Part shown: positions 604-56,583 of the stretch, piece after piece
Numbering within the stretch: position 1 is the stretch's first letter
Layout: each line of letters opens with the position of its first letter
IMG/VR virus record: IMGVR_UViG_3300013212_000061
Coordinates: 1 to 64,000 of that record
Strand: one strand, 5' to 3'
DNA from: a virus
DNA: 64,000 nt
Notes under the pieces: generated by a model
What the model was told of the DNA's origin: nothing
What the model saw: only the letters and a program-made list of their open reading frames with translations
The model's database searches: none
Made by a program: the position numbers and the translations under genes

Positions 604-876
604 ATGAAACATATTAACTTATTTGAAGACTTCTTAAATGAATCTGACTATGCAGAAGCAAGGGCTGACCTTTCGCTAAAGGCATCCGATCTACTCGCAA
701 AAAGAAAAGAACTTAGAAATAAAGTTAATAACCTTAATCAAAATGCAGATGACCCAAAATCTGCAATTCAAGCCCAAATAGCAACCCTTAAAATGCAGGC
801 TCTGGATCTTGATAATCAAAAAATAAGAATCAATTCTAATATACTTGATTTAAGTAAAAAATTAGAAAGTTTATAA
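604..876 (+). CDS. Small coiled-coil protein with capsid-targeting-like leader
   Basis: A 90-residue protein starting MKHINLFEDFLNES. I chose the ATG at 604 over the in-frame ATG at 565 because the shared leader motif begins exactly there. The leader resembles the T4 IPIII capsid-targeting peptide, and FLNE|S fits the [LI]xE cleavage rule of the gp21 protease. The rest is a charged helix rich in K, L, N and D with heptad-like spacing, probably a coiled coil. The next gene follows after 2 nt. The likely role is an internal head protein; that is inference. Confidence 0.75.
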   Translation: MKHINLFEDFLNESDYAEARADLSLKASDLLAKRKELRNKVNNLNQNADDPKSAIQAQIATLKMQALDLDNQKIRINSNILDLSKKLESL

Positions 877-878
877 CT

Positions 879-2168
879 ATGAAAACCAAAATCCTTAATT
901 TTAATCAGTTCATAACTGAAAGGTATGAAGTTAAATTGAATAAGCAATTGTTATTAGAGGGTGGAGCAGCCGGACATATGTCCCATCCATTCGATAATAA
1001 TGACCTAACATTTGGAGACTTCAAGAATATGATTATTGGTGGACTTCAAGGTGAACTAAACTTTGAAGAGGAACCTACTGAAAAAACCGACGGTCAAAAC
1101 GTATTTGCAACTATTCAAAATGGTGAGGTTAAATTTGCCAGAAATAAAACTGAGTTGCAAAACCCTATGAGTCTTAAGGATTTCCAAAATAAATTTGAGG
1201 GACATGCAAGTAAACTGGTACAAGATACTTTTCAATTTGCAGCCGCTGATTTAGCAACCCTGCTCATAAAGTTACCGGCAAAAACACAAGAGGAAGTGTT
1301 CCAGAATGGGCTGAACTTCATGAATATGGAGTTGATATATTCTGCAAACCCTAATGTAATTCACTATGATGTTGATGTAATTCAATTCCATGGTATCAAG
1401 AAGACTGATGGAGCTGGAAATATAGTTGGAGATGACAATAACGCGGCAAAAAGTGTTAGTGGAGTTCTTAAATCTTTAAACGCTGATGTTGGAAAAACAT
1501 TTACAATAATTCCACCGCAAGTTATTAAACTACAAAAAGATATAAATTTTGAAGAGAATCAGTCTAAATTCTTAGGAAAACTTGATGCTCTTAAAAATCG
1601 ATATAATTTAACTGATGCTGATGCAGTTGCCCGCTACCATGAAATGTGGTGGAGAGAACAAATTGAAGCAGCATTCGGTGACCTACCACAAAATATTAAA
1701 GAGGGACTATTATTAAGATGGGCTTATGACGACAAGAAAACCCTAAATATGCGTTCATTAGACAAAGAATTAACTCCAGCACAGGCTGAAGCAGTTAAGA
1801 AGTTTGACAAAGAGGACGTTAAAAAGAAATTCAAAGAAAACATCCGCCCATTTGAAGACCTATTCTTAGAATTGGGAAGTGTTATCTTAAAGAATGCTAG
1901 TAATTTTGTTGCTGCCTCTCCAGATAAAGAAATGCAAAGGCTACATAACGAAATTAGAACTGAAGCCGACAAGATTAAATTAAATGGAGATGTAACTCAA
2001 ATCGAAAAGGTTGCAAAAGAACTTGATAGACTTGAAAGAATTGGAGGAATCCAATCTATTATACCGACTGAAGGTATTGTATTTTCATACAAAGGACACA
2101 TGTACAAATTAACAGGAACATTCGCTGCAATAAATTCACTACTAGGTATTATTAAATATGGAAGATAA
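879..2168 (+). CDS. Ligase-like nucleotidyltransferase with capsid-targeting-like leader
   Basis: A 429-residue protein starting MKTKILNFNQFITER, a leader of the T4 capsid-targeting type with a possible FITE|R cut. The sequence EKTDGQN (residues 68-74) matches motif I of covalent nucleotidyltransferases (RNA/DNA ligases), with K69 as the candidate AMP-accepting lysine. MELIYSANPNVIHYD fits the middle motifs. TEGIVF (397-402) and YKLTG (409-413) fit motifs IV and V. It ends in KYGR. The family is probably ATP-dependent RNA or DNA ligase-like; the substrate is unknown. It lies in an operon with the following ligase/NMNAT-like fusion. If the leader works, the enzyme is packaged in the capsid. 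Confidence 0.75.
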   Translation: MKTKILNFNQFITERYEVKLNKQLLLEGGAAGHMSHPFDNNDLTFGDFKNMIIGGLQGELNFEEEPTEKTDGQNVFATIQNGEVKFARNKTELQNPMSLKDFQNKFEGHASKLVQDTFQFAAADLATLLIKLPAKTQEEVFQNGLNFMNMELIYSANPNVIHYDVDVIQFHGIKKTDGAGNIVGDDNNAAKSVSGVLKSLNADVGKTFTIIPPQVIKLQKDINFEENQSKFLGKLDALKNRYNLTDADAVARYHEMWWREQIEAAFGDLPQNIKEGLLLRWAYDDKKTLNMRSLDKELTPAQAEAVKKFDKEDVKKKFKENIRPFEDLFLELGSVILKNASNFVAASPDKEMQRLHNEIRTEADKIKLNGDVTQIEKVAKELDRLERIGGIQSIIPTEGIVFSYKGHMYKLTGTFAAINSLLGIIKYGR

Positions 2169-2169
2169 A

Positions 2170-2235
2170 ATGAAACACATAAAATTATTTGAAGAGTTTG
2201 TTGAAGCTGAACTTAATGAATCAACAATTAATTAA
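2170..2235 (+). CDS. Leader peptide with capsid-targeting motif, out of frame with next gene
   Basis: ATG at 2170, one base after the previous stop, encodes MKHIKLFEEFVEAELNES and stops at 2235 after 21 codons. It is an almost perfect copy of the leader used by neighbouring genes. The large enzyme that should follow it lies in the +1 frame. Either a 1-nt indel has detached the leader from the enzyme, or a +1 frameshift near 2225-2235 joins them, or this is a sequencing error. Confidence 0.6.
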   Translation: MKHIKLFEEFVEAELNESTIN

Positions 2236-4120
2236 TAAAAACAAAGAGATGGCACTACAAAAATTAAGAGAGTATTTTAACGAAACCAATAGAGAAACCT
2301 TTATTGATATGTTAAAAAATAGGGTGTTAGTAACTGAGAAGGTTGCAGCTCCCACATTTCTTGTTAAAAGAAATCTTGATGGGTTTGAATATTTTAAATC
2401 TTCAAATTCAGACAAATTAAATCTAATTGATAGAACTATTATCTCCCTATATGAGATTGCAATCAATTACATGCAAAGTTTGCCAAGTGGAACTAAAAAC
2501 CAAATGCCAATTGATTGGAGATTTGGATTTGAATACCTACCTGAAGTTAAAGCATCTAAAATTAAATACGAAAGAACTCCAAAAAATAACCTGATCTTGA
2601 CTCACATTCAACAAATGGGAGAGGGCAATAAGGTTAAGAAAACTATAAATGACCCAGTTATTCTAAACAAATGGGCTAAAATTCTTGATGTTCAACCGCC
2701 AAGCATCTTATTTGACGGTTACCTATCTCAACTGCAGCGAGATGAACTATTAGAATTATTGTCAATGAGTGATAGACAATTTAGTGAATCATTCGACTAT
2801 TTAGAAGAAACAAAAGACAAATTAAGTTTTACTAGTAGAATTATTAAACTTTTTAATCCTAGCGCCTTTGAAACTGCCCTAAATCCTGACATTGATGCAG
2901 AATTTGATGGATTGGTTGTTAATTTTATTGATGAAAAATCTATAAAATCTTTTAAATTAGAAGATTTTATCAGAAAGTCTACTGTTGATAACTCTTCAAG
3001 CCACACGTATCAAATTGCAGTGACGGATTTCTTAGAATTTGCAACTCAATTTAAAATTGATGAAGTTCAATTAGAAGACGAAAGAGCTGACTACAGATAT
3101 CTTAAAATAATGTCAATAATGTTTAATGAATATGTTGACAAGAACTCATCTAAATATATTGGAGTTAATTTTGAAAGCGCTGAATTTTCATCAGCACAGT
3201 CTTTTAAATTAAATACAAAATATATTACCGATGAAAAGACACTTAAATATACGTCAAATGATATTTTAGCTGAACTACTAAAAATGGTTTTAAGTTCTTT
3301 TAGAAAGAAACGAACTAAGACTTCAGATTTAATAGATAAGGACACTATGGCACGCCTAAATGAAATCATCGAAAAAATTAATAAGAAAATATTTGTGGAA
3401 AGTACAGAAGAAAATGCAATATATGACTATCAAAACTTTATGTTGCGTGATAAAATAAAATCTTCAGTTAACCTAAACGAGGCGCTTAAACTTACACATG
3501 TTGAACAAGGAAAACAGCCAGTAAATATGTTTGTTGGGCGATTCCAGCCATTTACACTTGGACACGCTAAAGTTTTAGAGACTATTCATAAAGAGAATGG
3601 CTACCCAGTAGTTGTATTTCTTGTTAAAGCAAAAACCAAAAAGAAAGGTGATGAATTTAGCAGACCGTACGACGAAAAGACACAAATTGAAATGTTTAAA
3701 AACGTTCAAAAACAATATTCATTCCTTAAAGAGATATATGTAATTCCAACCGGAGGTATCGATATTATGTTTAATGAAATGAGACCTAAATACGAACCAG
3801 TACTTTGGGGAACGGGAAGTGATAGAATGACAAGTTATGGTTATCAAGTTAATAATGACGCTTACAGAGATCAATTAAACTGTAGAGCTGATTTTGGACT
3901 TTTTGAAATTCCAAGAACCGACGATGATATTTCGGCTACCGCAGTCCGAAATGCCCTATTAGACGGTGATGAGAAACTATTCAACAATTTAACGCCAAAG
4001 GCAGTTCATTCGATGTATAATGAACTTAAATCTAAAATTGAAGATGCTATGGGAGTAGTTGCTGAAGGATTTACCAATGAGATTATGACATTCAAACAAT
4101 ATATTAACAAAGATATATAA
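2216..4120 (+). CDS. Ligase-like domain fused to NMN adenylyltransferase-like domain
   Basis: A 634-residue protein from ATG 2216 (the frame is also open from a TTG at 2189). The N-terminal half looks like a covalent nucleotidyltransferase: NLDGFEYF near 53, EFDGLVVNF near 230, then KSFKLED. The motif I lysine is not in its usual place (NLDG rather than KxDG), so ligase activity is doubtful. The C-terminal part (about 436-600) is a cytidylyltransferase/NMNAT-type domain with GRFQPFTLGH and ISATAVR. It ends in MTFKQYINKDI, which itself resembles the leader motif. The pairing suggests nucleotide or NAD chemistry at RNA or protein ends; the actual reaction is unknown. The capsid-type leader is upstream in another frame. 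Confidence 0.75.
   Translation: MNQQLINKNKEMALQKLREYFNETNRETFIDMLKNRVLVTEKVAAPTFLVKRNLDGFEYFKSSNSDKLNLIDRTIISLYEIAINYMQSLPSGTKNQMPIDWRFGFEYLPEVKASKIKYERTPKNNLILTHIQQMGEGNKVKKTINDPVILNKWAKILDVQPPSILFDGYLSQLQRDELLELLSMSDRQFSESFDYLEETKDKLSFTSRIIKLFNPSAFETALNPDIDAEFDGLVVNFIDEKSIKSFKLEDFIRKSTVDNSSSHTYQIAVTDFLEFATQFKIDEVQLEDERADYRYLKIMSIMFNEYVDKNSSKYIGVNFESAEFSSAQSFKLNTKYITDEKTLKYTSNDILAELLKMVLSSFRKKRTKTSDLIDKDTMARLNEIIEKINKKIFVESTEENAIYDYQNFMLRDKIKSSVNLNEALKLTHVEQGKQPVNMFVGRFQPFTLGHAKVLETIHKENGYPVVVFLVKAKTKKKGDEFSRPYDEKTQIEMFKNVQKQYSFLKEIYVIPTGGIDIMFNEMRPKYEPVLWGTGSDRMTSYGYQVNNDAYRDQLNCRADFGLFEIPRTDDDISATAVRNALLDGDEKLFNNLTPKAVHSMYNELKSKIEDAMGVVAEGFTNEIMTFKQYINKDI
4112..4120 (+). promoter_or_regulatory. 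Late-promoter-like box GATATATAA
   Basis: The box overlaps the stop codon of the upstream gene (the codons for D, I and stop) and lies 23 nt before the ATG at 4144. The same box precedes many structural genes in this window. Confidence 0.5.
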
Positions 4121-4143: not shown

Positions 4144-5685
4144 ATGAATTTTAATGAATTCCTAAATGAAGGTAGTACTTTAATTAAAGAATCAGTAGTT
4201 AATAAAAGAAACATCACAATCAAAAGACAATATACTGATAAAAATCCTGCAATTACTGTAGGTAAAGCAGCTAACGTTCGTAACAGAATGCTAGAAGCTA
4301 TTAAAGATGGTAAACTTTCTCAAGAAGATTTTAATAATATTCTTAAAGAAATGACCACAGATTCTAAAAGATGGTTGAGAAGAAACGCTCAGTATTTTAA
4401 TGTATCTGAAGACGGAATTACCCTATCAAAAACAGGTTCAAGAATCCTTAAAAATGTTATGGTTTCCGAAGCAACTACAAAGGCACCAAAGATTTGGGTT
4501 CCTGGAGGATTTGATAAAGAAATTTCAAAATACCCAAATAGTAAAATTACTAGAAAAAACGTATTTGATGCGGCACTTAAATGGGATGTTAATCCTGAAG
4601 AAGCAATTTCTTACGTAGAATATGGTTGGGCAGTAAACTTAAGCGAAAACAAAAACGATATGAAAACAAAATTTATTTACGAATCTTTTACAGAATTTGT
4701 TAAAAACCGGTTAAACGAAGGTAACTTAAACGAGGCATTTAAAAGTGCTAAATTGGCTAATCTTTTTGCAGTAGGAAGTGCCGGTACTAAAAACCTTGCA
4801 GGAGCATTCTATAACTTCTCAAAACTTGCAATTGACCAAATTCAAGACTATGATATTATTGAAATGGACCCTCAAACTGCCCGTAAAGAAAAAAGAGCTA
4901 ATGGTATTTACTTTTATGTAGTAACTAATCAAAAGACAAATCCATTCGCTGAAACTAGTAACCCATCAACTTGGAATAATGGACTTATTCAATCAAATAC
5001 TCTATTAGCAATAACAAGTGGGCAAAACGAATGGTACTCAACCGCTTATAGTAAATACGCAGGAGGTACTGAAACTTTAAAAATTACTAAAACAAGAGAG
5101 GATGCATCTGGATTTGATAAAAGAGACAGTAAAAGATATGATGGTTCTGGAATTACATCTCTTACCAAAGTAGCTGAATTGGCCGATATTGCATATGTTA
5201 TTGACTTAGACGTTCTTAAGGCGCGCTATTCTACAGCATCATTAGTATCAAAAAGAGCTGCAGATAAAAGTGGAGCTACTGCCTTTCAAAACGACAAAGA
5301 TTTTAAAGCGGCAAACAAGGCGCGTTATAACGAAATCTTAGCCCAAAAAGCATCTGAACTTCCAATGGATTCACTTGTATTAGGGGCTATTGATACTCTT
5401 GCTACTCAAATCAAAGATGCCTTAACTAAAGGTGAAAAAGGAAGATATGGAGAACTTATTGTTGGATTAGACCCTAAAGGTAGAGAAATCAAAATGAGTG
5501 ATGCATCTAACCTAATGAGAAACATCCTAGACGAGTACAATAGATACGTTGGATACGCTGTTGAATCTGAAAAAGAAGTTTCAACTGGATATAGTGGAAA
5601 ATTCTACGAAGATAGAATAAAAGAAAGTGCTAAAACAATCACTGATTACGTTAAGAAAGTAGACGCTAAAAATTACGCTTGGTAA
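4144..5685 (+). CDS. Putative internal virion protein with two capsid-targeting-like motifs
   Basis: A 513-residue protein starting MNFNEFLNEGSTLIKES. A second leader-like segment, ESFTEFVKNRLNEGNLNEAF, begins just after an internal ATG at 4660 (residue 173). The protein therefore looks like two cargo modules in one frame: a basic N-terminal module (residues 1-170) and a larger C-terminal module (residues 200-513) with mixed helix and sheet. The internal ATG could also start a separate product. No enzyme motif was recognised. FLNE|G, RLNE|G and NLNE|A fit the gp21-type cleavage rule. It sits in a run of leader-bearing genes and has its own late-promoter-like box upstream. Confidence 0.65.
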   Translation: MNFNEFLNEGSTLIKESVVNKRNITIKRQYTDKNPAITVGKAANVRNRMLEAIKDGKLSQEDFNNILKEMTTDSKRWLRRNAQYFNVSEDGITLSKTGSRILKNVMVSEATTKAPKIWVPGGFDKEISKYPNSKITRKNVFDAALKWDVNPEEAISYVEYGWAVNLSENKNDMKTKFIYESFTEFVKNRLNEGNLNEAFKSAKLANLFAVGSAGTKNLAGAFYNFSKLAIDQIQDYDIIEMDPQTARKEKRANGIYFYVVTNQKTNPFAETSNPSTWNNGLIQSNTLLAITSGQNEWYSTAYSKYAGGTETLKITKTREDASGFDKRDSKRYDGSGITSLTKVAELADIAYVIDLDVLKARYSTASLVSKRAADKSGATAFQNDKDFKAANKARYNEILAQKASELPMDSLVLGAIDTLATQIKDALTKGEKGRYGELIVGLDPKGREIKMSDASNLMRNILDEYNRYVGYAVESEKEVSTGYSGKFYEDRIKESAKTITDYVKKVDAKNYAW

Positions 5686-7655: not shown

Positions 7656-9083
7656 ATGGAATTCTTAGACGCATTAAGACAAGAAGATATGGTAACTGAA
7701 AACGGGATGGCGACAAACTCAACTTCGTTGAATGCATGTGTTGACCTTTTCTTTAACATTGGAGCTATGAGAGGACAAGACAAACAACGTTTGATTGCAA
7801 CGTTCTCTAAAGCATTTAATGAGGACCCTAAGCGCGCTATGAAATTACTTTTCTGGGCCAGAGATGTCCGTGGAGGAGCTGGAGAACGTCAAGTTTTCAA
7901 AGACATTTTAGTTTATTTGGCAGAAAACCATGACTTGGTACTTAAACCAAACTTACATTTAATTTCAGAGTATGGTCGTTGGGATGATTTATTATCTTTA
8001 GCAGGAACATATCTTGAAAAAGATGCATTCACCCTAATTTCAGATGCATTAATCAACGAAAATGGTTTATGTGCTAAATGGATGCCACGTAAAGGAGCTG
8101 TAGCCGAAAAGTTACGTAAATTTACTGGAATGTCCCCAAAACAGTACAGAAAATCTCTTGTAGGTTTAACTAGTGTTGTTGAAACTAAAATGTGTGCTGG
8201 AGACTGGAATTCTATCGACTTCGGTAAATTACCATCAGTCGCTTCAGCAAGATACCAAAAAGCCTTTGGTAAAAATGCATACGAAAGTTATTCAGCGTAC
8301 ATTGCTTCTCTTGTAAAAGGTGAGGCTAAGATTAATGCAGGTGCAGTTTATCCTTACGATATTATTACATCATTAGAACGTGGAAATGCAACCGTAGCAA
8401 ACGAACAATGGAAAGCCTTGCCAAACTATTTGGAAGGTGCAAACGATATGATTTTACCAGTAGTAGACGTTTCAGGTTCTATGTCAAGTCCAGCTGGTGG
8501 AAGTAAAACTGTAACTTGTATGAATGTTGCAATCTCATTGGGTCTTTATATTTCTGAAAGAAATGAAGGTCCTTTCAAAGATGCATTTATTACATTCTCA
8601 AGTAAACCACAGTTACAAGTATTAAGTGGTTCACTGAATGATCGCTACACACAGATGTCGGACTCTGATTGGGGAATGTCAACAGATCTTGAGGCTACAT
8701 TCAAACTGATTTTAAATCAGGCCACTAAGCACAAATTGTCTCAAGACAAAATGCCAAACAAAATCTTAATCCTATCGGATATGGAGTTTAACACGGCAAC
8801 TGGAAGGGGTTATAGAAGAGAAGGAGGTACATGGAATCCAACTGCTCAGCAGTTGATTGAGAAAATGTACAACGACGCAGGTTACAAAATTCCTCAAATT
8901 GTTTACTGGAATATTCAATCCCGAAACGGAGGAGTACCAGTTGCATTTGATGCTAAAGGAACTGCATTAGTTTCAGGATTCTCTCCAGCAATTATGACAA
9001 GTTTACTTGGAGGAGATATTGAATCTCCACAACAAATAATGGATAAAACAATTTTGAGTGAGAGATACGCTCCAATTGTATAA
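7656..9083 (+). CDS. TROVE/vWA-like (Ro60-related, DUF2828-type) protein
   Basis: A 475-residue protein. The N-terminal ~260 residues are helical repeats with signatures seen in the TROVE/DUF2828 group (LFWARDVRGGAGERQVF, YGRWDDLL). The C-terminal part is a von Willebrand A domain with an intact MIDAS, DVSGSMS, at about 270-277, and ILSDMEF further on. Ro60 proteins bind misfolded RNAs and Y RNAs and, in bacteria, often have a Y RNA gene next door. Here a gene-free, structured stretch of about 350 nt with its own terminator follows immediately. Assignment to this superfamily is fairly secure; RNA binding is inference. Confidence 0.75.
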   Translation: MEFLDALRQEDMVTENGMATNSTSLNACVDLFFNIGAMRGQDKQRLIATFSKAFNEDPKRAMKLLFWARDVRGGAGERQVFKDILVYLAENHDLVLKPNLHLISEYGRWDDLLSLAGTYLEKDAFTLISDALINENGLCAKWMPRKGAVAEKLRKFTGMSPKQYRKSLVGLTSVVETKMCAGDWNSIDFGKLPSVASARYQKAFGKNAYESYSAYIASLVKGEAKINAGAVYPYDIITSLERGNATVANEQWKALPNYLEGANDMILPVVDVSGSMSSPAGGSKTVTCMNVAISLGLYISERNEGPFKDAFITFSSKPQLQVLSGSLNDRYTQMSDSDWGMSTDLEATFKLILNQATKHKLSQDKMPNKILILSDMEFNTATGRGYRREGGTWNPTAQQLIEKMYNDAGYKIPQIVYWNIQSRNGGVPVAFDAKGTALVSGFSPAIMTSLLGGDIESPQQIMDKTILSERYAPIV

Positions 9084-9946: not shown

Positions 9947-10533
9947 ATGTACATCTATAAGATAACTAACCTCATCAATAACAAAATCTATATTGGTCTA
10001 TCTACAAAATCAGTAGAAGAATCAACCAAATACTACGGTTCCGGTATATTAATTAAAGAAGCTATCCAAAAATATGGCAAAGAAAACTTTACTAAAGAGA
10101 TTATTGAAAACCATATAGAGAATTTCGATACTCTTAAAGTTAGAGAAATCTATTGGATAGAGTATTTTAAATCATATGCATCTTATGATAATTATAACCT
10201 AACACTAGGCGGAGATGGCTCACTAGGATTAAGTCCAACTAAATTTACTAAAAATAAAATATCTAAAACTTTAAAAGGATATATCCATTCAAAAGAAACT
10301 AAAGAAAAAATGTCTAATTCTGGAAAAGGTAGACAATTCTCAGAAGAAACCAAAGATAAATTATCTAAATCAAATAAAGGTCAAAAAGATCAGAAAAAAC
10401 AAAAGAAAATATATCAAAATCTTTAAAAGGAGTACCAAATCCTAAAAAGAACGTTCAATGCACTTTTTGCAACAAAATCGGAGCAAGTAATAACATGAAT
10501 AGGTATCATTTTAATAATTGTAAAAATAAATAA
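9947..10533 (+). pseudogene. GIY-YIG homing endonuclease, frameshifted
   Basis: The N-terminus has the GIY-YIG fold signature MYIYKITNLINNKIYIGLS, then YWIEYF, followed by NUMOD-type repeats (SKETKEKMSNSGKGRQFS). The intact frame stops at 10426. Restoring one A in the A tract at 10383-10387 lets the frame continue as RSEKTKENISKSLKGVPNP and end in a zinc-finger-like CTFCNK...HFNNC tail at 10533. The gene is therefore probably inactivated by a 1-nt deletion, or the sequence has an error there. It is a free-standing endonuclease inserted next to a truncated gene copy. Confidence 0.8.
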
Positions 10534-14862: not shown

Positions 14863-15330
14863 ATGGCAAATATAGACAATCAATGTAAAGACCTGGAAGT
14901 TAATGACTTCTATTCAGATTCGACCACTCACTTGGCGGATATCATGGAAAACCAAAAGAAAATGCAAGAGCAAACTTACGGTTTTAATTTCGAAAACATG
15001 ACACTTAGAGAGATTATGAACTTTTGGCATGTCAACACTCATGCTGTTATTGATGAAATTCATGAAATGACCGATGCCCTTGGAGGTATTAAAGATGGCA
15101 GTGGAAATGCAGTTTGGAAATACTGGAAAAAAGACTTTTCAAAATATGAAACCATGAAAATCAGCGACCTATCAGAAGGTGATAAAAAGGAATTGTATAT
15201 GGAATGGGTTGACATAATGCACTTCTTTATAAATTATGCAGCATCTATTGGATTAGACGCGAAAACAGCCTACAATTATTACTTTGCGAAAGCAGAAGCA
15301 AATGTTCAACGTCAGAAAAATAACTATTAA
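14863..15330 (+). CDS. dUTPase, all-alpha dimeric type
   Basis: 155 residues. The pattern WHVNTHAVIDEIHEMTDAL, then KKELYMEWVDIMHFFINYA and a KAEANVQRQ tail matches the all-alpha NTP pyrophosphatase (dUTPase_2/MazG-like) family, with the Mg-binding ExxE...ExxD spacing. It would hydrolyse dUTP (or dCTP) to the monophosphate. The ATG of the polymerase gene shares the last base of its stop codon, so the two are translationally coupled. Confidence 0.75.
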   Translation: MANIDNQCKDLEVNDFYSDSTTHLADIMENQKKMQEQTYGFNFENMTLREIMNFWHVNTHAVIDEIHEMTDALGGIKDGSGNAVWKYWKKDFSKYETMKISDLSEGDKKELYMEWVDIMHFFINYAASIGLDAKTAYNYYFAKAEANVQRQKNNY

Positions 15331-16727
15331 TGATACTCGACATCGAACAGCGTGAAAAAGATGTTATCATTTCATACTACAATGACAAGGGAGAAGTAGC
15401 ATTCAAACAATACCCAGTGGATAAATTCCAAAATTGGTATGTTTGTGATGACAAAGACAAAGCGGCCAGTCCAGACTATAAAAACTGGGATGGCCGCCCT
15501 GTTAAACTAGGATATGGAAAACAATTCAATAAGTTTTCTATTCTTTATTTTTTAGATAATCTTTCAGAGAAGGACAAAAAAGACCTAACAGCATATAATA
15601 TGCCAAAAACCTATTTTGTCGATATTGAAACTGAAATTGTTGACGGCTTTCCAAAAGCCGAAGAGGCCAAAAGTAGAATTCTTTCATTCTCAATAATTAC
15701 TCCAGACCGTAAAGCAATCGTGCTTGGACTGGAAGATATGGCTTCAGATAAAATCCAAAAGATTCAAGATGATACTAATGAGTATTTCAAAGACTTTGAC
15801 CAGGACTGGGAATTTAAGTACCATAAGTTCAAGTCTGAGTACGACATGGTTTACACATTCTTAATGAAATTCTTACCAAAGTTTCCAATGATGACTGGGT
15901 GGAATTTTATCAACTATGACTGGCAATATATTGTTAATCGTTGTAAAAGACTTCAAATTGATATTAAAGAAGTTGGTATGACAAATTCAATCGATCATAC
16001 TGATGGTCGACCTCTTCATATCGGAATTCTTGACTACATGCAATTGTATGACAAATATGACCGAACGGTAAAAGTTAAAGAATCCAACTCATTAGATTAT
16101 GTTTCTAGTCAAGTTTTGAATGTTAACAAAATCAAGTTCACTGGTTCACTACAGGACTTATACCGTGATAACTTTGTTAAGTACATATATTATAACGTTG
16201 TCGATTCAGTGCTTGTGTATTACATTGACCAGAAGTTGAAGTCGATGGAGGTACTATTAACACTGGCAAATATTACAAATATGCCCTTATATAAAGCAAG
16301 TTCTCCAGTGGCAGTTACTGAATCTATTATGGCCAGAAAATTGGCTGAGCAAGGAATGCGAATTGGAAGTGAAGAGAAATCTGATAGTCAAAAAGATGGC
16401 CAATACGCTGGAGCATTCGTAAAAGAACCAATCTTAGGATTCTATGAAGGTGTAAGTGCATTCGATTTTGCTTCACTGTATCCTTCGATCATGAGACAAT
16501 TCAATATATCTCCAGATGCATACATCGAAAAGATTTATAAGAGTGAAATTGATGAACGTAGAAAGAACAAAGAGGTTATAGTTTGTGATAATGGTGTAGT
16601 TTACAAAACTGAAGATTCAATCTTAAGAAAGATATTAAGTGACCTATATGCACAGCGTAAAGATTATAAAAAAACTTCTTATGAATACTTCACAAAAGCT
16701 GACCGGTTGAAAAAACTGCTCCAATAA
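15330..16727 (+). CDS. 43A: DNA polymerase family B, N-terminal part (gp43-like, split gene)
   Basis: A 465-residue protein with the 3'-5' exonuclease motifs FVDIETE (about 97-103), GWNFINYDWQYI, and NVVDS, followed by polymerase motif A, DFASLYPSI (about 378-386). It ends in the fingers region (YFTKADRLKKLLQ) and lacks motifs B and C. Those are encoded 6.4 kb downstream at 23148. The two parts together (863 residues) are close to T4 gp43 (898). The break falls between motifs A and B. No intron or endonuclease remnant lies at the break; ribonucleotide reductase follows. Confidence 0.9.
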   Translation: MILDIEQREKDVIISYYNDKGEVAFKQYPVDKFQNWYVCDDKDKAASPDYKNWDGRPVKLGYGKQFNKFSILYFLDNLSEKDKKDLTAYNMPKTYFVDIETEIVDGFPKAEEAKSRILSFSIITPDRKAIVLGLEDMASDKIQKIQDDTNEYFKDFDQDWEFKYHKFKSEYDMVYTFLMKFLPKFPMMTGWNFINYDWQYIVNRCKRLQIDIKEVGMTNSIDHTDGRPLHIGILDYMQLYDKYDRTVKVKESNSLDYVSSQVLNVNKIKFTGSLQDLYRDNFVKYIYYNVVDSVLVYYIDQKLKSMEVLLTLANITNMPLYKASSPVAVTESIMARKLAEQGMRIGSEEKSDSQKDGQYAGAFVKEPILGFYEGVSAFDFASLYPSIMRQFNISPDAYIEKIYKSEIDERRKNKEVIVCDNGVVYKTEDSILRKILSDLYAQRKDYKKTSYEYFTKADRLKKLLQ

Positions 16728-19534: not shown

Positions 19535-20617
19535 ATGATTCCAATCAAGCTTTTCGAAGAATTCTTATACGAAGAAAATCTTAAAAACAAATACGCTAAG
19601 AAAGTGGCATGGATTATGAAGTCTCATGATATTCATGCAACTTCAGGCGATGTTAATGGCCGCGAAAAGAAATACAATATCGCCGCTAAAGGTAACCTAT
19701 TCTTAAACTATGCAACCAAAGAGGACTTTAAAGATGATGCAGTTGTAGTACCTGGAAATGTTCCAATACTTAATTATGGAGGAGCAGTAGACCCGGAGGC
19801 TATTGGATTCTTAAAGAATAAAGGAATCAACAATGATAATCTATACAACAAAAGAGAATTACTTCCACTATCAGGAGACAAGATAAAATTTGCTAAAGCA
19901 GCCGCAAAATTTGATTGGCTTCCAAAAACAGTTTTTACAAAAGAGGATGCCATTAAAGGAGACGTTGGTTTCCCGGTAATTGCAAAAATAAAAGATGGAC
20001 ACAGTGGAGTTGGAATTCAAAGGTTTGACACCGCCAAAGAATTAGAAGAGAGCAAAGATACATTCGATATCTTTTGTCAATTTATAGATTTTGCAAGAGA
20101 ATATAGAGTAATGTTTTGTAGAGACAAGATATTTGTTATCAACGAAAGAGTACCTAGAATTGAGGACGACCGTTCAATCAAAACTAAAACTGCCGATGAA
20201 AAAATCAGTTTTACTTATGTTTATCAAGACAGAAAGAAAGTTGACCCTGAATTTATTGAAAATGTGTTATCAATTTGCAAAGACGTTAAAACATTCTTAG
20301 ACCTAGACTTATGGGCCCTAGATATTGTAGTAGATAAAAAGGGTAAAATGTGGATTATGGAAACATCATCTGCTACCGGACTTGGAAGTGTTAAAATGTG
20401 CGAAGTTTATAAGGCAATGTATGAAGATTTTTACGGAGAAGCAATAGATGACGAATTCTTAGAGGACATTTACCTAAAATACGTAGTTCCTGGACATCAA
20501 AATTATTACCCAAAATTTAAAAAAGAAATCGATTCATCACAATGGCCGATGGATTACAAAATATTGACTGATCCGAAAGCAAAAGATGGATATAGATATT
20601 TTTTTAATTTAGATTAA
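19535..20617 (+). CDS. ATP-grasp ligase with capsid-targeting-like leader
   Basis: A 360-residue protein from ATG 19535 (the frame is open from a TTG at 19529). It starts MIPIKLFEEFLYEE, the shared leader with a possible FLYE|E cut. GFPVIAKIKDGHSGVG (about 144-160) is the ATP-grasp nucleotide-binding strand pair, and LDIVV...MWIMETSSATGLG (about 264-284) the metal-binding site. ATP-grasp enzymes join a carboxylate to an amine or thiol through an acyl-phosphate. It lies 1 nt before a carboxyethyl-ornithine-synthase-like gene, which could supply or use its substrate. The leader suggests packaging in the head. Confidence 0.75.
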   Translation: MIPIKLFEEFLYEENLKNKYAKKVAWIMKSHDIHATSGDVNGREKKYNIAAKGNLFLNYATKEDFKDDAVVVPGNVPILNYGGAVDPEAIGFLKNKGINNDNLYNKRELLPLSGDKIKFAKAAAKFDWLPKTVFTKEDAIKGDVGFPVIAKIKDGHSGVGIQRFDTAKELEESKDTFDIFCQFIDFAREYRVMFCRDKIFVINERVPRIEDDRSIKTKTADEKISFTYVYQDRKKVDPEFIENVLSICKDVKTFLDLDLWALDIVVDKKGKMWIMETSSATGLGSVKMCEVYKAMYEDFYGEAIDDEFLEDIYLKYVVPGHQNYYPKFKKEIDSSQWPMDYKILTDPKAKDGYRYFFNLD

Positions 20618-20618
20618 T

Positions 20619-21677
20619 ATGAAAACAGGAATATTTAAAACATCGCTAAAGGAAAACGAAAAACGAATTCCAATCCACCCAGCCCATATTGAAAGGCTAT
20701 CCGGAGAAATAATTAAAGAACTCTTATTTGAAGAGGGATATGGAGATGACTATGGCTATTCAGACTCTCAACTCGAACAAATGGGTTGCAAGTTTGCCAG
20801 TCGTGCGGATCTTTTTAAAGAGTGCAACATAATTATATTACCAAAACCACTCGCTGAAGACCTAAAACAAATACAGGATGGTGCAACTCTATGCGGTTGG
20901 ACCCATGCAGTTCAACAGAGGGACATTACAGACATTGCTATCGAAAAAGGGTTAACACTTATTGCTTGGGAAGAGATGAACAGTGTTTCCAAAAACCAAA
21001 AGTTGCATACATTCTATCGGAACAATGAACTTGCTGGATACGCTGGCGTTATACATTACCTACAATTAGCAGGTCTTGATGGACACTATGGAGACCGTAA
21101 GAAGGTTGTTATTTTTGGATTTGGTTCTGTAAGTAAAGGAGCAATCTATGCCCTACAGGGTAGAGGTTTTAATAACATTACCGTTTATACTCAAAGACCT
21201 ACACACTTAGTTGCCGACAAAAATCCTGACGTCTGGTACAAAAACTTTAATGACGATGACGTTTGGGAAGACATGTATTCTGCCAATATTATATTTAATG
21301 GAGTCTTACAGGATGTAAATAATCCACTAATGTTTATTAAAGATTTGAATCAATTGGATCAACTACGCAGAAACTGCGCAATTATCGATATCAGTTGTGA
21401 CAGGGGAATGGGATTCTTTTTTGCAGAACCTACATCATTTGAAAATCCAATTATAAAATTAAGAAGAGGGATACAGTACTATTCAGTCGATCATACTCCA
21501 ACATACTTATGGAATGCAGCATCTAGAGAAATCTCTGCCGCGCTTGTACCTTACTTAGATACTATAATAGAACCTCAAAAATGGAAAGACAATCCAGTTA
21601 TTAATGCTTCTATCGATATTGCATGTGGAACTATTATTAATCAAAACATAAACAAATTTCAAAAAAGGAATATATAA
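20619..21677 (+). CDS. N5-(carboxyethyl)ornithine synthase-like dehydrogenase
   Basis: A 352-residue protein of the alanine dehydrogenase/PNT fold. The N-terminal FKTSLKENEKRIPIHPAHI block, GWTHAVQQRDITD, AWEEMNS, NNELAGYAGVIHYL, the NAD(P) motif FGFGSVSKGA (about 167-176), IIDISCDR, SVDHTPTYLW and a final NQNINKFQKR all align by memory with lactococcal N5-(L-1-carboxyethyl)-L-ornithine synthase. That enzyme reductively condenses pyruvate with the side-chain amine of ornithine or lysine using NADPH. The match is strong for the family; substrate is inferred. Very unusual in a phage. Confidence 0.75.
   Translation: MKTGIFKTSLKENEKRIPIHPAHIERLSGEIIKELLFEEGYGDDYGYSDSQLEQMGCKFASRADLFKECNIIILPKPLAEDLKQIQDGATLCGWTHAVQQRDITDIAIEKGLTLIAWEEMNSVSKNQKLHTFYRNNELAGYAGVIHYLQLAGLDGHYGDRKKVVIFGFGSVSKGAIYALQGRGFNNITVYTQRPTHLVADKNPDVWYKNFNDDDVWEDMYSANIIFNGVLQDVNNPLMFIKDLNQLDQLRRNCAIIDISCDRGMGFFFAEPTSFENPIIKLRRGIQYYSVDHTPTYLWNAASREISAALVPYLDTIIEPQKWKDNPVINASIDIACGTIINQNINKFQKRNI
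21669..21677 (+). promoter_or_regulatory. Late-promoter-like box AATATATAA
   Basis: Overlaps the stop codon of the upstream gene (codons for N, I and stop) and lies 23 nt before the ATA start at 21701. Confidence 0.45.
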
Positions 21678-23147: not shown

Positions 23148-24344
23148 ATGACAATCGAAGAACTAATACTAAAACCAGAGAGTGATTTATCACAAGATGA
23201 AATTAAAACATTGGTTGAGCATTATTCTATGTTGTCAGCAAAGTTTGGAGCCTATGAACAAGCAGTAAAAGTAATGCTTAACTCGATCTATGGCGCCTTC
23301 GGTAACAAATGGTTTCACTTTTTTAATATAGACATCGCAGAATCTATTACCCTACAGGGACAGTCTGCGATTCTATATTCTGAGAAGATACTAAATAAGT
23401 ATTTTCAAGAGTTTTGGACTAAAGACAAGGCAGTTCATGAGTTTTTTAACATTCAAGTTAAAAATAAACTTGTGCGACCTTCAGTAGTCTATATTGATAC
23501 CGATTCTTGTTATGTACAGTTTGAAGAGATGTATGAATCTATTGAATGGCTTGGAGACAAGATATCGATTGACCAATTCATTATGAAATTGTATAACTTT
23601 AGACTTAAAGATTATATTTTTAAGTGTATGGAGAAATATGCAGAAGCCACTAATACTGAAAACTTCCTCCAGTTTGAATTGGAAACGATTGCCTACTCTG
23701 GAATTTGGTTAGCTAAGAAAAAATACCTGCAAAATATTGCTTGGGAAGATAAAATTGGAATTGAAGAACGTTACCCTTCACTTAAGAAGGTTAAAACTAT
23801 TGGTTTTGATACAATTCAAAGTTCAACACCAGCTCTTGCAAGAAAGCAGTTGACCGATATTCTTAAATTGATTCTTTCAGAAAAACCTACAGCGTCCCTA
23901 TTAAAAAGACTAGTAGATTATTTGAAACAATGTAAAAAAGAATTCCAATTAGCAAGTGTTGATGAGATATGTTTTAATAAAAGAACTAACAATATCGAAA
24001 AATATATTGTAGATGATACGGTAGAATTTCAATATGGTTTAAAATGTCCACCAAACGTTAAAGCTGCAGGATTTTATAATTTCTTAATGAATCAAAATCC
24101 AAAGTTCAAGAACAAGTATAAGATGATTGGTAATGGTGAAAAGCTAAAACTATATCATTGTAAACATGGGACATGTGAAATATTTGCATACCAACCAGGA
24201 GCTCATCCTTATGAAATTGCCCCTCAAGTTGACTATGAAACACAATTCGAAAAGAGTGTTATAGATCCATTGAACCGGGTTCTTACCGCAGTTGGTTTAC
24301 ATACACTAAATAGAAACTTAATTTATTCAACTTCATTATTTTAA
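23148..24344 (+). CDS. 43B: DNA polymerase family B, C-terminal part (gp43-like, split gene)
   Basis: A 398-residue protein starting with a short new N-terminus (MTIEELILKPESDLSQDE). It then carries motif B, NSIYGAFGN (about 45-53), motif C, YIDTDSCYV (about 115-123), and the thumb, with a C-terminal NRNLIYSTSLF that may bind the clamp. It lacks the exonuclease and motif A, which are at 15330-16727. The two proteins must assemble for activity. It is in an operon behind the putative clamp. Confidence 0.9.
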   Translation: MTIEELILKPESDLSQDEIKTLVEHYSMLSAKFGAYEQAVKVMLNSIYGAFGNKWFHFFNIDIAESITLQGQSAILYSEKILNKYFQEFWTKDKAVHEFFNIQVKNKLVRPSVVYIDTDSCYVQFEEMYESIEWLGDKISIDQFIMKLYNFRLKDYIFKCMEKYAEATNTENFLQFELETIAYSGIWLAKKKYLQNIAWEDKIGIEERYPSLKKVKTIGFDTIQSSTPALARKQLTDILKLILSEKPTASLLKRLVDYLKQCKKEFQLASVDEICFNKRTNNIEKYIVDDTVEFQYGLKCPPNVKAAGFYNFLMNQNPKFKNKYKMIGNGEKLKLYHCKHGTCEIFAYQPGAHPYEIAPQVDYETQFEKSVIDPLNRVLTAVGLHTLNRNLIYSTSLF

Positions 24345-30559: not shown

Positions 30560-33055
30560 ATGGCAAGTTACAATCAAAAATTTAATTCCGATGATAGTGT
30601 AGTTAGACACATCATTATAGGTTTTTTAGCCGATTTGAATACCAAATTGTATTTTCATCGACAAATAACCAATGACGAAAGAGTAGTAGTGGATGTTCCA
30701 TTTTATTACTCAATAACAGGGGATGACCAATTCCTTAGAGACAATTTTCTATTTTCAACACCATCAGGACCAAATTGTACTCCAGATAAAGCGCATGCGG
30801 ATGCAAACTATGATGTTGTACCAAGAGGAATTGTAAACTTTTCAGGACTTGCTATTGATTCTGGAAAATTAGTCAATAAAAGAACTACAGGTCAGTACAC
30901 TAAAATGAACTCTGAAGGGATCATTGAATCTTATGTTGCTGAATTTGACATGATTCCAATAACTATTAGTTTTGATGTTGAAATCCTAGTATCTTCAACA
31001 CTTGATTCTTTTAAAATCACTGAGGCAATAATCAAAAGAATGTACAAATCCAACTATTTTAATGTTGAAGTTGGGCATTTAGAGGAGGGTAATTATAGAA
31101 TCGCATCTTATTATGCACTACCTGATGATTACACTCTTGAAAGACCTGTTGGATTTACATATGATGACAAAGACCGATTTAAAATAACTTTTCCTATTGA
31201 AGTTAATTCATTTATACCTTCATTTCATTTAGGTAATGAAGAAGGTTTTGGATCAAATCAACTTTCTACTGAGCGTTTTGCTGGAAACAGAATGTTTACT
31301 ATAGATGCTATTATAAACTCTACTGATGTTAATCAAATTACTTCCGGACAATATTTCGGAGATATTGTAGAAGTTCCAGGAACATCGCAACCTGGCGGAA
31401 GTTCTCTATTTGGAACCCAAGGTCCTGTAGGACCTGCAGGGGATAGAGGACCTCAAGGACGTCAAGGAACGCAAGGAGCACAAGGTACTCAAGGTTACCA
31501 AGGTACCCAAGGAAACCAAGGAACACAAGGTTACCAAGGAGACCAAGGAACACAAGGTTACCAAGGAGACCAGGGAACTCAAGGTTACCAAGGAGACCAG
31601 GGAACTCAAGGTTACCAAGGAGACCAGGGAACTCAAGGAACACAAGGTACTCAAGGAGACCAAGGAACACAAGGTTACCAAGGAGACCAGGGAACTCAAG
31701 GTTACCAGGGAGACCAAGGAACACAAGGTTACCAAGGAGACCAGGGAACTCAAGGTTACCAGGGAGACCAGGGAACTCAAGGTACTCAAGGAGACCAAGG
31801 AACCCAGGGATTCCAAGGTGCTCAAGGATTCCAAGGTGCTCAAGGAGTTCAAGGTGCTCAAGGTGCTCAAGGAGTTCAAGGTGCTCAAGGAGTTCAAGGA
31901 GTTCAAGGTGCTCAAGGAGTTCAAGGTGCTCAAGGTGCTCAAGGAGTTCAAGGTGCCCAAGGAGTTCAAGGCTTACAGGGAATTCAAGGTGCCCAAGGAT
32001 TTCAAGGTGCTCAAGGAGTTCAAGGCTTACAGGGAGTTCAAGGTGCTCAAGGACGCCAAGGTTCTCAAGGGTTTCAAGGACAAAAAGGTGAAACTGGATC
32101 TTTCGGTGGTGCAACATTTGAGTTCTATTATGATAATGACACAACAGATCCCGTAAATTTGACACCAGGGCATGTAAGAATTAATGAATTTGGTACGGAA
32201 ATGTACATTTCATATTTAGACATTAACTCTATAAGTATTCAATCATTTTTACAAACAATTGATGATTCAACTTCTCAAATTAAAGGTTTATTTAAACTAA
32301 CATCATATACTGACCCGTTACTTTATGCAATATTTAATATAGTAGGTAGCCATACAGAGCATACAGACCATTTCAATGTTCCAGTTGCATTTATTTCCAG
32401 TCCTATTGCTGGAACTGTTCCTCCCGACCAATTAGCATATATTACTTTCCAAAGAACAGGAGACATTGGAGATAGAGGACCTCAAGGTTTTCAAGGTGCC
32501 CAAGGAACGCGAGGTTTTCAAGGAGCCCAAGGTTTTCAAGGAGTACAAGGAGCCCAAGGTTTTCAGGGAATACAAGGAGTACAGGGTGCCCAAGGAACTC
32601 AAGGTTTCCAGGGAATACAAGGAACTCAAGGAACTCAAGGAGTACAAGGATTCCAAGGTGCTCAAGGAGTACAAGGATTCCAAGGACCTCAAGGTTTTCA
32701 AGGAGCCCAAGGTACTCAAGGAACTGGAGCCCAAGGGTTTCAAGGTGTTCAAGGACCCCAAAGTTCAGGTGCAGGTGGAAGTATTAAATCAATAAATGTA
32801 ATAAGTAGCAACACCACCGCCGGAAGCAATGCAAGTACTGAATATACATATCTTGCTTCAGGAACTATTGATATTACTCTTCCAACTGCCGTAGGAAATA
32901 CAAATAACTATTACATTAAAAATACCGGAACCGGCACAGTAACAATTAAAACAACTTCAACTGAAACAATAGATGGAAGTTTAACAGCCCCATTGCGGGT
33001 TCAATACACAGCATTAACATTAGTAAGCGATGGTACAAACTGGTTTATAATATAA
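30560..33055 (+). CDS. Collagen-like virion fibre protein
   Basis: An 831-residue protein. Residues 1-280 form a globular virion-attachment-type domain (NQKFNSDDSVVRHIIIGFL). Residues ~286-510 are Gly-X-Y repeats dominated by GTQ, GYQ, GDQ, GAQ and GVQ. A ~125-residue globular domain follows (510-635). A second collagen block spans ~636-735, and a ~95-residue beta-rich tip ends it (about 736-831). Collagen-like trimeric stalks are known in phage fibres and adhesins. The C-terminal tip probably trimerises or binds receptor. The first gene of the fibre group; the start has a late-type box only 3 nt upstream. Confidence 0.85.
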   Translation: MASYNQKFNSDDSVVRHIIIGFLADLNTKLYFHRQITNDERVVVDVPFYYSITGDDQFLRDNFLFSTPSGPNCTPDKAHADANYDVVPRGIVNFSGLAIDSGKLVNKRTTGQYTKMNSEGIIESYVAEFDMIPITISFDVEILVSSTLDSFKITEAIIKRMYKSNYFNVEVGHLEEGNYRIASYYALPDDYTLERPVGFTYDDKDRFKITFPIEVNSFIPSFHLGNEEGFGSNQLSTERFAGNRMFTIDAIINSTDVNQITSGQYFGDIVEVPGTSQPGGSSLFGTQGPVGPAGDRGPQGRQGTQGAQGTQGYQGTQGNQGTQGYQGDQGTQGYQGDQGTQGYQGDQGTQGYQGDQGTQGTQGTQGDQGTQGYQGDQGTQGYQGDQGTQGYQGDQGTQGYQGDQGTQGTQGDQGTQGFQGAQGFQGAQGVQGAQGAQGVQGAQGVQGVQGAQGVQGAQGAQGVQGAQGVQGLQGIQGAQGFQGAQGVQGLQGVQGAQGRQGSQGFQGQKGETGSFGGATFEFYYDNDTTDPVNLTPGHVRINEFGTEMYISYLDINSISIQSFLQTIDDSTSQIKGLFKLTSYTDPLLYAIFNIVGSHTEHTDHFNVPVAFISSPIAGTVPPDQLAYITFQRTGDIGDRGPQGFQGAQGTRGFQGAQGFQGVQGAQGFQGIQGVQGAQGTQGFQGIQGTQGTQGVQGFQGAQGVQGFQGPQGFQGAQGTQGTGAQGFQGVQGPQSSGAGGSIKSINVISSNTTAGSNASTEYTYLASGTIDITLPTAVGNTNNYYIKNTGTGTVTIKTTSTETIDGSLTAPLRVQYTALTLVSDGTNWFII
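31416..32088 (+). repeat. Collagen-like coding repeat, block 1
   Basis: Nine-base units of the type CAAGGTACT/CAAGGAGTT encoding GXQ triplets. The longest homogeneous runs are GTQGYQGDQ (27 nt period) near 31500-31780 and GAQ/GVQ near 31815-32040. Such DNA can change length by slippage. Confidence 0.9.
32466..32764 (+). repeat. Collagen-like coding repeat, block 2
   Basis: A second run of GFQ, GAQ, GTQ, GVQ and GIQ triplets, separated from block 1 by a globular coding segment. It opens with GDIGDRGPQGFQ and ends at QGPQSSGAGG. Confidence 0.9.
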
Positions 33056-40933: not shown

Positions 40934-41275
40934 ATGAAAATAATTAAAACATTTGAGGAATTTACAAGTTCACTTCAAGAAGATGCAATTGATGCAGGAG
41001 AAGATTCAAAAGTAGTAATTGATGATGTCACACTTGACTCAGGAAAAGAAATTAAATCTACTGAAATTTTAGGGACTATTCTGTCTTCAAAAAGTGAAAA
41101 AGAATTTAAAGAATATTTCTACAGTGAATATGGAAATACTGCATTTACCGAAGAGGATATGTTTACTCTAGTTAAATTTTATAGCGATTATCAAGAAGAA
41201 ACTGCTCAAAAAGAAAAGGATGCTGAAAAAGATGCAGAAGGTGGCGAAGAAAAAGATCCACTAGCCGATCTATAA
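40934..41275 (+). CDS. Prohead core protein (gp67/gp68-like) with leader motif
   Basis: A 113-residue, very acidic protein starting MKIIKTFEEFTSSLQED, the shared leader with a possible SLQE|D cut. It lies between portal and protease, exactly where T4 has the small core proteins gp67 and gp68. The C-terminus is a charged repeat (KEKDAEKDAEGGEEKD). A core component that is digested during head maturation fits both leader and place. Finding the motif on a core gene supports reading it as a head-targeting signal in the other genes. Confidence 0.75.
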   Translation: MKIIKTFEEFTSSLQEDAIDAGEDSKVVIDDVTLDSGKEIKSTEILGTILSSKSEKEFKEYFYSEYGNTAFTEEDMFTLVKFYSDYQEETAQKEKDAEKDAEGGEEKDPLADL

Positions 41276-55980: not shown

Positions 55981-56583
55981 ATGATAAAATATCACTATGT
56001 GTATAGAATAACTAACACAAAACTCAACAAACACTATTATGGTTCAAGAACATCTCAAATAGAACCTGCAAAAGATTTGGGACATAAGTACTTTTCAAGT
56101 TCTTTTGATAAAGAATTTATCAAAGACCAAAAGAACAATCCACAGGATTATAAATACGTGATAGTTTCTAAATTTAATTCACGAAAAGAGGCTCTAGAAT
56201 TAGAAGTTAAACTACACACAAAATTTAACGTAGGAGTTAACAATAATTTTTATAATAAAGCTAGAGCAACTTCTTCAAAATTCACAATGGAAGGAACCAA
56301 AATATCGGAAGAAACTAGACTAAAGCATATTGGCGAAAATAATGGAATGTATGCTAAAAATCATACAATTGAATCTAGAATTAAAATGAGTCAATCTAGT
56401 AAAAATCCATCCGAAGCTACTCGAAAAAAAATGTCTGAAAATCATGCGGACGTTTCAGGAGATAAAAATCCAATGTATAATAAAAATCATACAATTGAAT
56501 CTAGAATTAAAATGTCAAAGCCAAAGACCGAAGAACATCGTCGCAAAATGTCCGAAGCGGCAAAAAGAAGATACTCTAAATAA
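55981..56583 (+). CDS. GIY-YIG homing endonuclease
   Basis: A 200-residue protein. YHYVYRITNTKLNKHYYGSR carries the GIY-YIG core in the form YVY...YYG with the catalytic Arg; Glu follows in ALELEVKLH. The C-terminal half has NUMOD3-type repeats (NNGMYAKNHTIESRIKMS and NPMYNKNHTIESRIKMS). Free-standing between terminase and sheath genes, with the same upstream hairpin and AT-rich leader as the copy at 9947. Unlike that copy, it is intact. Confidence 0.85.
   Translation: MIKYHYVYRITNTKLNKHYYGSRTSQIEPAKDLGHKYFSSSFDKEFIKDQKNNPQDYKYVIVSKFNSRKEALELEVKLHTKFNVGVNNNFYNKARATSSKFTMEGTKISEETRLKHIGENNGMYAKNHTIESRIKMSQSSKNPSEATRKKMSENHADVSGDKNPMYNKNHTIESRIKMSKPKTEEHRRKMSEAAKRRYSK

Follow-up and report, generated by a model that had tools for sequence, protein, structure and literature searches.

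Ligases place AMP on a 5'-phosphate before sealing, and enzymes of the HIGH superfamily use ATP to adenylylate a phosphate. Phages are known to encode ligase-type enzymes and nicotinamide mononucleotide (NMN) adenylyltransferase (NMNAT)-like enzymes, and also to deliver enzymes in the virion; that ligase-type and NMNAT-like enzymes form a conserved partnership has apparently gone undescribed. Here we analyse a 64,000-base stretch of viral DNA (the window), bases 1-64000 of an incomplete virus record of 80,024 bases (IMG/VR IMGVR_UViG_3300013212_000061), in which two adjacent genes encode a predicted stand-alone RNA-ligase-fold protein (gene A) and a fusion of a ligase-like half to an NMNAT-like HIGH adenylyltransferase domain (gene B).

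Among the closest described systems are those of T4 and the cyanophages. Capsid-targeting sequences of T4 are N-terminal leaders of about 10 residues that are cut off by the prohead protease, and the Alt protein bears such a leader and is processed at both ends (PMC9026906). The cyanophage HIGH homologue T4-GC190 was detected in S-SM1 virions by mass spectrometry (PMC3037559). A cytidylyltransferase was likewise detected in S-CREM2 virions, with S-CBWM1, S-SZBM1 and S-SCSM1 also cited, and the S-CREM2 authors suggest virion delivery and synthesis of nicotinamide adenine dinucleotide (NAD+) for virion NMNAT-like proteins (PMC10665884). An NMNAT-like enzyme riding in virions has already been proposed by others; a ligase partner is not mentioned in the available parts of these two reports (PMC3037559, PMC10665884).

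The open reading frames (ORFs) of the window include those for portal, prohead protease, major capsid protein, terminase and sheath, which identify a T4-like phage. A preliminary description had proposed that A and B are a head-packaged ligase and a ligase/NMNAT-like fusion, each preceded by a capsid-targeting-like leader, that might modify RNA or protein ends, or make or use NAD, at the very start of infection. Both ORFs and all of the ligase and HIGH motifs quoted there are present, and their invariance in relatives (mostly kept in the ligase half of gene B) excludes chance. Below, labels with the prefix L denote compared loci, L199 being the 80 kb record itself; alignment A2 comprises gene A and its relatives (60 sequences, identity down to 41%) and alignment A3 the relatives of gene B (44 sequences).

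HIGH enzymes and ligase-like proteins are paired across phages

It is well supported that HIGH adenylyltransferases and KxDG ligase-like proteins occur together, adjacent or fused, in nine or more phage groups: the lineage of the window, terminase/portal-side HIGH-A fusions, Mel-JY01, huge phages, cyanophages, and Campylobacter, Vibrio, Stenotrophomonas and Xanthomonas phages. Within the lineage of the window, gene B follows gene A at nearly every locus, so that the conservation of the gene pair, which the preliminary description had named as a check, is borne out. A sister group has the ligase half of gene B without the NMNAT domain, which is carried instead on the N-terminal module of gene C (L051, L070, L076, L079, L122, L128 and L140). 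Elsewhere gene A itself carries the HIGH domain at its N-terminus (the large group L154-L186, Microcystis phage Mel-JY01 and LR756508), and in Campylobacter CPt10 and Vibrio pv27 a ligase-like half and a HIGH domain share one protein. In Xanthomonas X1 and Stenotrophomonas Moby and Marzo a ligase-like gene (KLDG or KMDG ... EGV[VI]) overlaps the HIGH gene. Furthermore, DUF6267 (KWDGAPA ... HEGFV) adjoins a cytidyltransferase in cyanophages P-RSM4, S-PM2 and S-SSM4, phrog_455 covering both, and a search of viral models with the gene A structure placed cytidyltransferase-fused proteins on top, that of S-PM2 at E 6e-4.

Insertions occur in two of the fusions. The one in L184 (5699-8287) contains a polynucleotide-kinase-family HAD domain (phrog_415, E 9.4e-12), which points to nucleic-acid end repair, and that in L166 (5084-8281) an HNH-like insert. 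By hhalign, gene A was joined neither to the ligase half of gene B nor to DUF6267 (probability 0.2%; a Pfam search likewise gave no PF19782 match). By sequence these are therefore separate ligase-like families, and the HIGH enzyme seems to be partnered with several of them. Such genes are very common: of about 50,700 phage records, 470 carry DUF6267 and 557 the cyanophage cytidyltransferase. The preliminary description knew of no described system with this pair, and we found no description of it in the literature; an earlier mention in RNA-repair work is possible, and the available portions of two RNA-repair-related papers of the Burroughs/Aravind group do not mention it.

Gene A has an RNA-ligase fold

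Sequence searches with gene A gave no match in Pfam, PHROGs, NCBIfam or PDB sequences, and its assignment therefore depends on fold and motifs. The AlphaFold2 model is good (predicted local distance difference test, pLDDT, 89; predicted template modelling score, pTM, 0.83), and its top PDB matches by Foldseek/VIA are all RNA or DNA ligases, with RNA ligases leading. The best Foldseek hit is the adenylyltransferase domain of a Candida tRNA ligase (E 5.5e-3). VIA Z scores are 9.5 for Naegleria RNA ligase, 8.6 for T4 Rnl1 and for editing ligase 1, and 7.8 for T4 Rnl2, the ranges being about 7-9.5 for RNA ligases and about 5-7 for DNA ligases. Single E-values are modest, and the weight of this predicted fold comes from the consistency of the match list and from the motifs lying on the expected strands.

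Conservation singles out the same residues. E68, K69, D71, G72, N74, R88, E151, E398, G399, K410, T412 and G413 are invariant in the 60 relatives, L411 is nearly so and F170-H171 is also kept; the TEGIVF...YKLTG of the preliminary description corresponds to residues 397-413. The segment ahead of motif I is equally constrained, with no variation in A2 at E27, G28, G29, G32, H33, M34, H36, P37, D39, L43 or F45. A ligase signature expression matched gene A alone among the 48 ORFs of the window. At locus L032 an intein splits gene A exactly after K69 (EPTEK|CLSENT ... GILVHN|TDGQN); inteins typically sit at active sites, and its position is in keeping with K69 as the active site.

Gene A has the motif I, the motif III and IV Glu, the motif V Lys and the fold of a covalent nucleotidyltransferase. 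It has neither the K-x-K/R motif V nor the typical C-terminal domain of the T4 Rnl1 and Rnl2 families, and in the model only 16 residues follow motif V, with no OB or other domain there. Judged from conservation and model, gene A is probably active as an enzyme. Import of the two genes from cells was considered and rejected, since relatives of gene A, present in more than 540 viral contigs, were found in one fragment only among 11.3 million cellular contigs.

Gene B joins an Rnl2-like half to a HIGH adenylyltransferase domain

The preliminary description quoted the gene B motifs correctly. A start of the gene at TTG 2189 is ruled out by frame and conservation, relatives beginning MALQKLREYF at the position of ATG 2249, with M1-A2-L3 invariant in A3. 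Motif I reads TEKVAAPTF, with the predicted catalytic Lys31 at 2339-2341, and EFDGLVV and KSFKLED are motifs IV and V. In A3 the lysines K31, K50 and K236 are kept in 42, 43 and 41 of the 44 sequences, the motif III acid in 43 (about half of them Asp) and the motif IV acid in 41 (mostly Asp). T4 Rnl2 (2hvr) is the best Foldseek match of the N-terminal half (E 4.9e-7), so that a ligase fold is predicted for both proteins, as had been proposed; the model of the whole gene B protein is less certain (pLDDT 81.6, pTM 0.57). The Rnl2 family model PF09414 did not match the window protein and was weak in L141 (E 0.023) and CPt10 (E 0.03). This half has the fold and motif I Lys of Rnl2 and falls outside its family model; from sequence and model it is possibly an atypical and weak ligase.

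The C-terminal domain is matched above cut-off by PF01467 (E 1.8e-7). Its fold neighbours (AlphaFold2 with Foldseek/VIA) are NMNATs and phosphopantetheine adenylyltransferases, archaeal NMNATs being closest (M. jannaschii NMNAT: Z 15.4, root-mean-square deviation 2.5, 154 residues), which confirms the fusion to an NMNAT-type domain. GRFQPFT-x-GH, G-x-DR and SAT-x-VR are invariant across the 44 relatives, and motifs and model together indicate that the domain is very probably an active adenylyltransferase. NMN is not secure as its substrate, because the D-x3-N-x2-W of the archaeal NMN pocket appears here as D505-x3-N509-x2-R512, with Arg in 44 of 44 sequences. TIGR01527 gives E 8e-9 and 35 bits, where the curated NMNAT cut-off is 181 bits. 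Gene B therefore shares the HIGH and ISxTxxR motifs and the fold of NadM-type enzymes and lacks the pocket Trp and a TIGR01527 score above cut-off; the earlier suggestion that this domain makes NAD is accordingly uncertain.

Leaders and carriage in the virion

A capsid-targeting-like leader had been claimed for both genes. Gene A has one, with an (L/I)xE site, and gene B has none at its N-terminus. The strict leader pattern fits 8 of the 91 ORF N-termini of the record and none of its 21,162 interior residues. A leader of the gene A type also opens the gene at 40934-41275, which lies between portal and protease, the gp67/gp68 position. The leader formerly assigned to gene B was rejected as a part of it, since MKHIKLFEEFVEAELNESTIN lies in the separate ORF 2170-2235. 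This ORF is a remnant of a hypervariable leader-gene slot: in relatives, small hypervariable genes lie between A and B, all of them opening with a capsid-targeting-like leader (L004, L005, L007, L008, L017, L021, L035, L047, L051, L054, L058, L063 and L070). At L029 the slot is occupied by a GIY-YIG-type homing endonuclease.

At the C-terminus of the gene B protein a TFxxF[IL] peptide similar to the core of the leader is conserved (T614 invariant and F615 at 90% or more in the 44 sequences), and this peptide is a possible capsid targeting signal. Carriage of the ligase-HIGH set in the virion of this phage is probable by analogy, because a cyanophage HIGH protein has been found in purified virions, and we also count as a virion link that HIGH-A fusion genes stand directly upstream of terminase and portal. 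T4 late-promoter boxes (TATAAATA) number 17 in the window against 10.2 expected, slightly above chance, and none of them lies at gene A or gene B; late expression of the two genes is thus a presumption.

Surrounding genes

The coordinates of genes A and B and of the features around them are collected in Table 1.

Table 1. Genes A and B, their motifs and adjoining features, in window coordinates
Feature	Position	Strand	Basis
Small gene directly 5' of gene A, leader MKHINLFEDFLNE; homologues in 18 loci	604..876	+	
Gene A, 429 aa, predicted stand-alone RNA-ligase-fold covalent nucleotidyltransferase	879..2168	+	fold search, conservation
Gene A capsid-targeting-like leader MKTKILNFNQFITE, (L/I)xE site at residue 14, ending ITE	879..920	+	leader pattern
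Gene A EGGxxGHMxHPFDxxxLTFxDFK segment, aa 27-49, 5' of motif I	957..1025	+	conservation in A2
Gene A motif I EKTDGQN, aa 68-74; predicted catalytic Lys69 at 1083-1085	1080..1100	+	conservation in A2
Gene A motif III N149-M150-E151, on model strand 146-153	1323..1331	+	invariant in 60 sequences
Gene A motif IV E398-G-x-V-F and motif V K410-L-T412-G	2070..2117	+	A2; strands 399-404, 407-411
21-aa ORF MKHIKLFEEFVEAELNESTIN, other frame than gene B, own stop	2170..2235	+	
Gene B, 623 aa, Rnl2-like ligase domain and NMNAT-like HIGH adenylyltransferase (predicted)	2249..4120	+	conserved MAL start, fold search
Gene B ligase-like region, aa 1-400; motif IV 2897-2926, motif V 2942-2965	2249..3448	+	conservation, fold
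Gene B NMNAT-like HIGH domain, aa 422-602	3512..4054	+	PF01467, fold search
Gene B GRFQPFTLGH; D505/N509/R512; GTGSDR; ISATAVR	3536-3565; 3761-3784; 3809-3826; 3929-3949	+	
Gene B C-terminal leader-like peptide IMTFKQYINKDI (MTFKQYI)	4082..4117	+	conserved in A3
Gene C, leader MNFNEFLNE; homologues in 135 loci	4144..5685	+	

Further along, a DUF2828/DUF7788 (TROVE/vWA-like) protein, homologues of which occur in 26 loci, is encoded at 7656-9083, 3.5 kb 3' of gene B; elsewhere, TROVE proteins have been connected to RNA repair. An ATP-grasp-like enzyme with the capsid-targeting-like leader MIPIKLFEEFLYEE (19535-20617) has TATAAATA ahead of it at 19508 and is followed by an alanine-dehydrogenase-like gene (20619-21677). 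A family B DNA polymerase is apparently divided between two ORFs about 6.4 kb apart (15330-16727 and 23148-24344), with ribonucleotide reductase, sliding-clamp-like and further genes between them. GIY-YIG-type homing endonuclease-like ORFs lie at 9947-10426 and 55981-56583, the latter directly after the large terminase gene, and a long collagen-like GxQG repeat protein (30560-33055) is encoded beside putative tail-fibre genes. The window has no tRNA genes and no Rfam matches; three tRNA genes (Cys, Gly and Gln) lie beyond it, where the 80 kb record ends (L199, bases 79213-79913).

Discussion

Folds and pairing are the well-supported part of this analysis. The recurrent pairing, the fusion to a HAD domain and the fold matches to RNA ligases speak for an early-infection role in processing nucleic-acid ends, probably those of RNA, and we tentatively read A and B as a virion-delivered module for end processing and ligation, probably of RNA, in which the HIGH partner would adenylylate a phosphate, that of NMN or of an RNA 5' end. 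The substrate and function, the location in the virion of this phage, the timing of expression and a role in repair are inferred. A and B would be one lineage's form of a widespread phage module of ligase-type and HIGH-superfamily enzymes. Gene A would be expressed late; its product would be pulled into the prohead by the N-terminal leader, cut by the prohead protease behind ITE14 and passed into the host cell along with the genome. The product of gene B would reach the prohead through binding to A or via its C-terminal leader-like peptide, and the two could act ahead of phage gene expression. Lys69 of A and Lys31 of B would accept AMP, with which 5'-phosphate ends of nucleic acid would be activated and then sealed, most likely ends of RNA such as nuclease-cut tRNA, and the HIGH half of B would pass AMP from ATP to NMN, yielding NAD+, or to an end of that same damaged RNA.

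Several observations sit uneasily with this proposal. In gene A, motif V reads K-L-T instead of K-x-K/R, the second basic residue being replaced by Thr, and a helical insertion of about 200 residues, unlike anything in Rnl1 or Rnl2, separates motifs IIIa and IV. The preliminary description had held that loss of catalytic residues across homologues would count against it: none is lost in gene A, but in gene B the ligase Lys is Asn or Gln in 2 of the 44 relatives and Asn in the huge phage LR756500, and its motif III and IV acids are often Asp. Nor is the pairing universal, as Lak-B5, Munch, Callisto and Cr30 showed no ligase-like gene in the neighbourhood of the HIGH gene, and DUF6267 and the HIGH gene are far apart in ACG-2014f and S-CREM1. 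As to the virion, gene B lacks an N-terminal leader, and the S-CREM2 authors warn that an abundant non-virion protein could contaminate preparations (PMC10665884). Finally, a separate, ordinary Rnl2-type ligase is encoded at 72696-73289 of the record. Plain RNA repair is thus perhaps already covered, from which it may be argued that the pair does something beyond routine RNA sealing.

If the HIGH domain were a true NMN adenylyltransferase, it could restore NAD+ during infection or against NAD-depleting defences, with the ligase-like domains using or sensing NAD+ or recycling NMN. We consider this rather unlikely. Archaeal NMNATs are the closest solved folds (Z 15.4), TIGR01527 matches at E 8e-9, the D-x3-N of the pocket is kept, and NAD+ synthesis is the role that the cyanophage authors proposed for virion NMNAT-like proteins (PMC10665884). 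NadV, which makes NMN, is present in 5 of 18 relatives; a search of four of these NadV-bearing records for CTP_transf_like domains matched the gene B domain and nothing else. The 80 kb record, itself incomplete, shows no NadV. Against this stand the invariant Arg512 that aligns with the archaeal pocket Trp, the 35 bits set against a 181-bit cut-off, and the differing pockets of paired HIGH domains elsewhere; NadV was not found in 13 of the 18 records, many of them incomplete. Such a role would also leave the constant ligase partner unexplained. Because NadV is inconstant and the NMN-pocket Trp is replaced, we did not retain NAD salvage as an explanation on its own.

Action on phage DNA ends or on the genome, in packaging, repair or hypermodification, in place of action on RNA, would suit the HIGH-A fusions that adjoin terminase and portal genes, and DNA ligases share the fold of gene A; that they are outscored by RNA ligases (Z about 5-7 vs about 7-9.5) and that gene A has no OB domain make it improbable. 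Covalent nucleotidyltransferases can also pass a nucleoside monophosphate to acceptors other than nucleic acid, so that A and B might adenylylate or tag host proteins early in infection, and likely virion delivery and the precedent of T4 Alt, with its leader and C-terminal processing, would be compatible with this. The fold neighbours, however, are nucleic-acid ligases and the HAD (polynucleotide-kinase-type) fusion points to nucleic-acid ends, and we regard protein modification as quite improbable. It is very improbable that A and B are structural passengers of the prohead core whose enzymatic sites are kept for binding only: leader-bearing core-type genes and the drift of the gene B ligase Lys and acids in some relatives would accord with it, but the catalytic residues of gene A and the HIGH motifs of gene B are invariant over deep divergence.

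It is tempting to carry the end-processing proposal further and to speculate that the HIGH domains are a branch of the NMNAT superfamily that acts on nucleic acid and would convert an RNA 5'-phosphate to AppRNA, the ligase intermediate, or to a cap, leaving the partner ligase to seal, and that such sets are carried in the virions of many phage groups and act ahead of all phage gene expression; in this broad form the idea is distinctly unlikely. The partnership of the two enzymes offers a testable function for very common, unexplained phage genes. It also hints at the enzymes that T4-like phages deliver at time zero, when loss of NAD, or damage to RNA by host defences, would first count.

Comparison with known systems

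Gene A shares its core fold and motifs I, III, IV and V with T4 Rnl1, Naegleria RNA ligase and the adenylyltransferase domain of fungal Trl1. It differs from them in the long helical stretch inserted between motif IIIa and motif IV, in a chain that ends just past motif V, in the conserved HPFD segment before motif I and in the absence of a second motif V Lys. The N-terminal half of gene B is closest to T4 Rnl2 and PF09414, having an EK-xx-[AG] motif I, the same strand order and its best fold match there; unlike them it escapes the family model, its motif III and IV Glu is mostly Asp or mixed, and it is fused to a HIGH domain. The C-terminal half resembles archaeal NMNAT/NadM in fold, in GRFQPF-TxGH and ISATxVR and in the D-x3-N of the pocket, and departs from it in a pocket Arg for Trp, a score below the curated cut-off, a ligase partner and the lack of a Nudix or kinase domain. 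The phage NAD salvage enzymes, NadV with NadM or NadR, likewise place an NMNAT-like enzyme in a T4-like phage, and NadV occurs in some relatives here; in this lineage, by contrast, the enzyme is partnered with a ligase instead of being fused to a Nudix or kinase domain, and NadV is not always present (PMC9503650).

As regards delivery, T4 Alt and IPI-III offer a parallel to the short gene A leader with its (L/I)xE site and to the hypervariable leader-bearing neighbour genes; Alt, however, is an ADP-ribosyltransferase found in the virion, whereas the ligase and HIGH enzymes described here are known from their genes. The cyanophage pair T4-GC190 and T4-GC71 (DUF6267, PF19782) likewise sets a HIGH enzyme beside, or fused to, a KxDG ligase-like protein, with a leader-like N-terminus (MKKFNAFLIEA) and a HIGH protein in virions. 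Its DUF6267 protein differs in having no assigned function and no sequence similarity to gene A, which the fused protein of S-PM2 resembles in fold.

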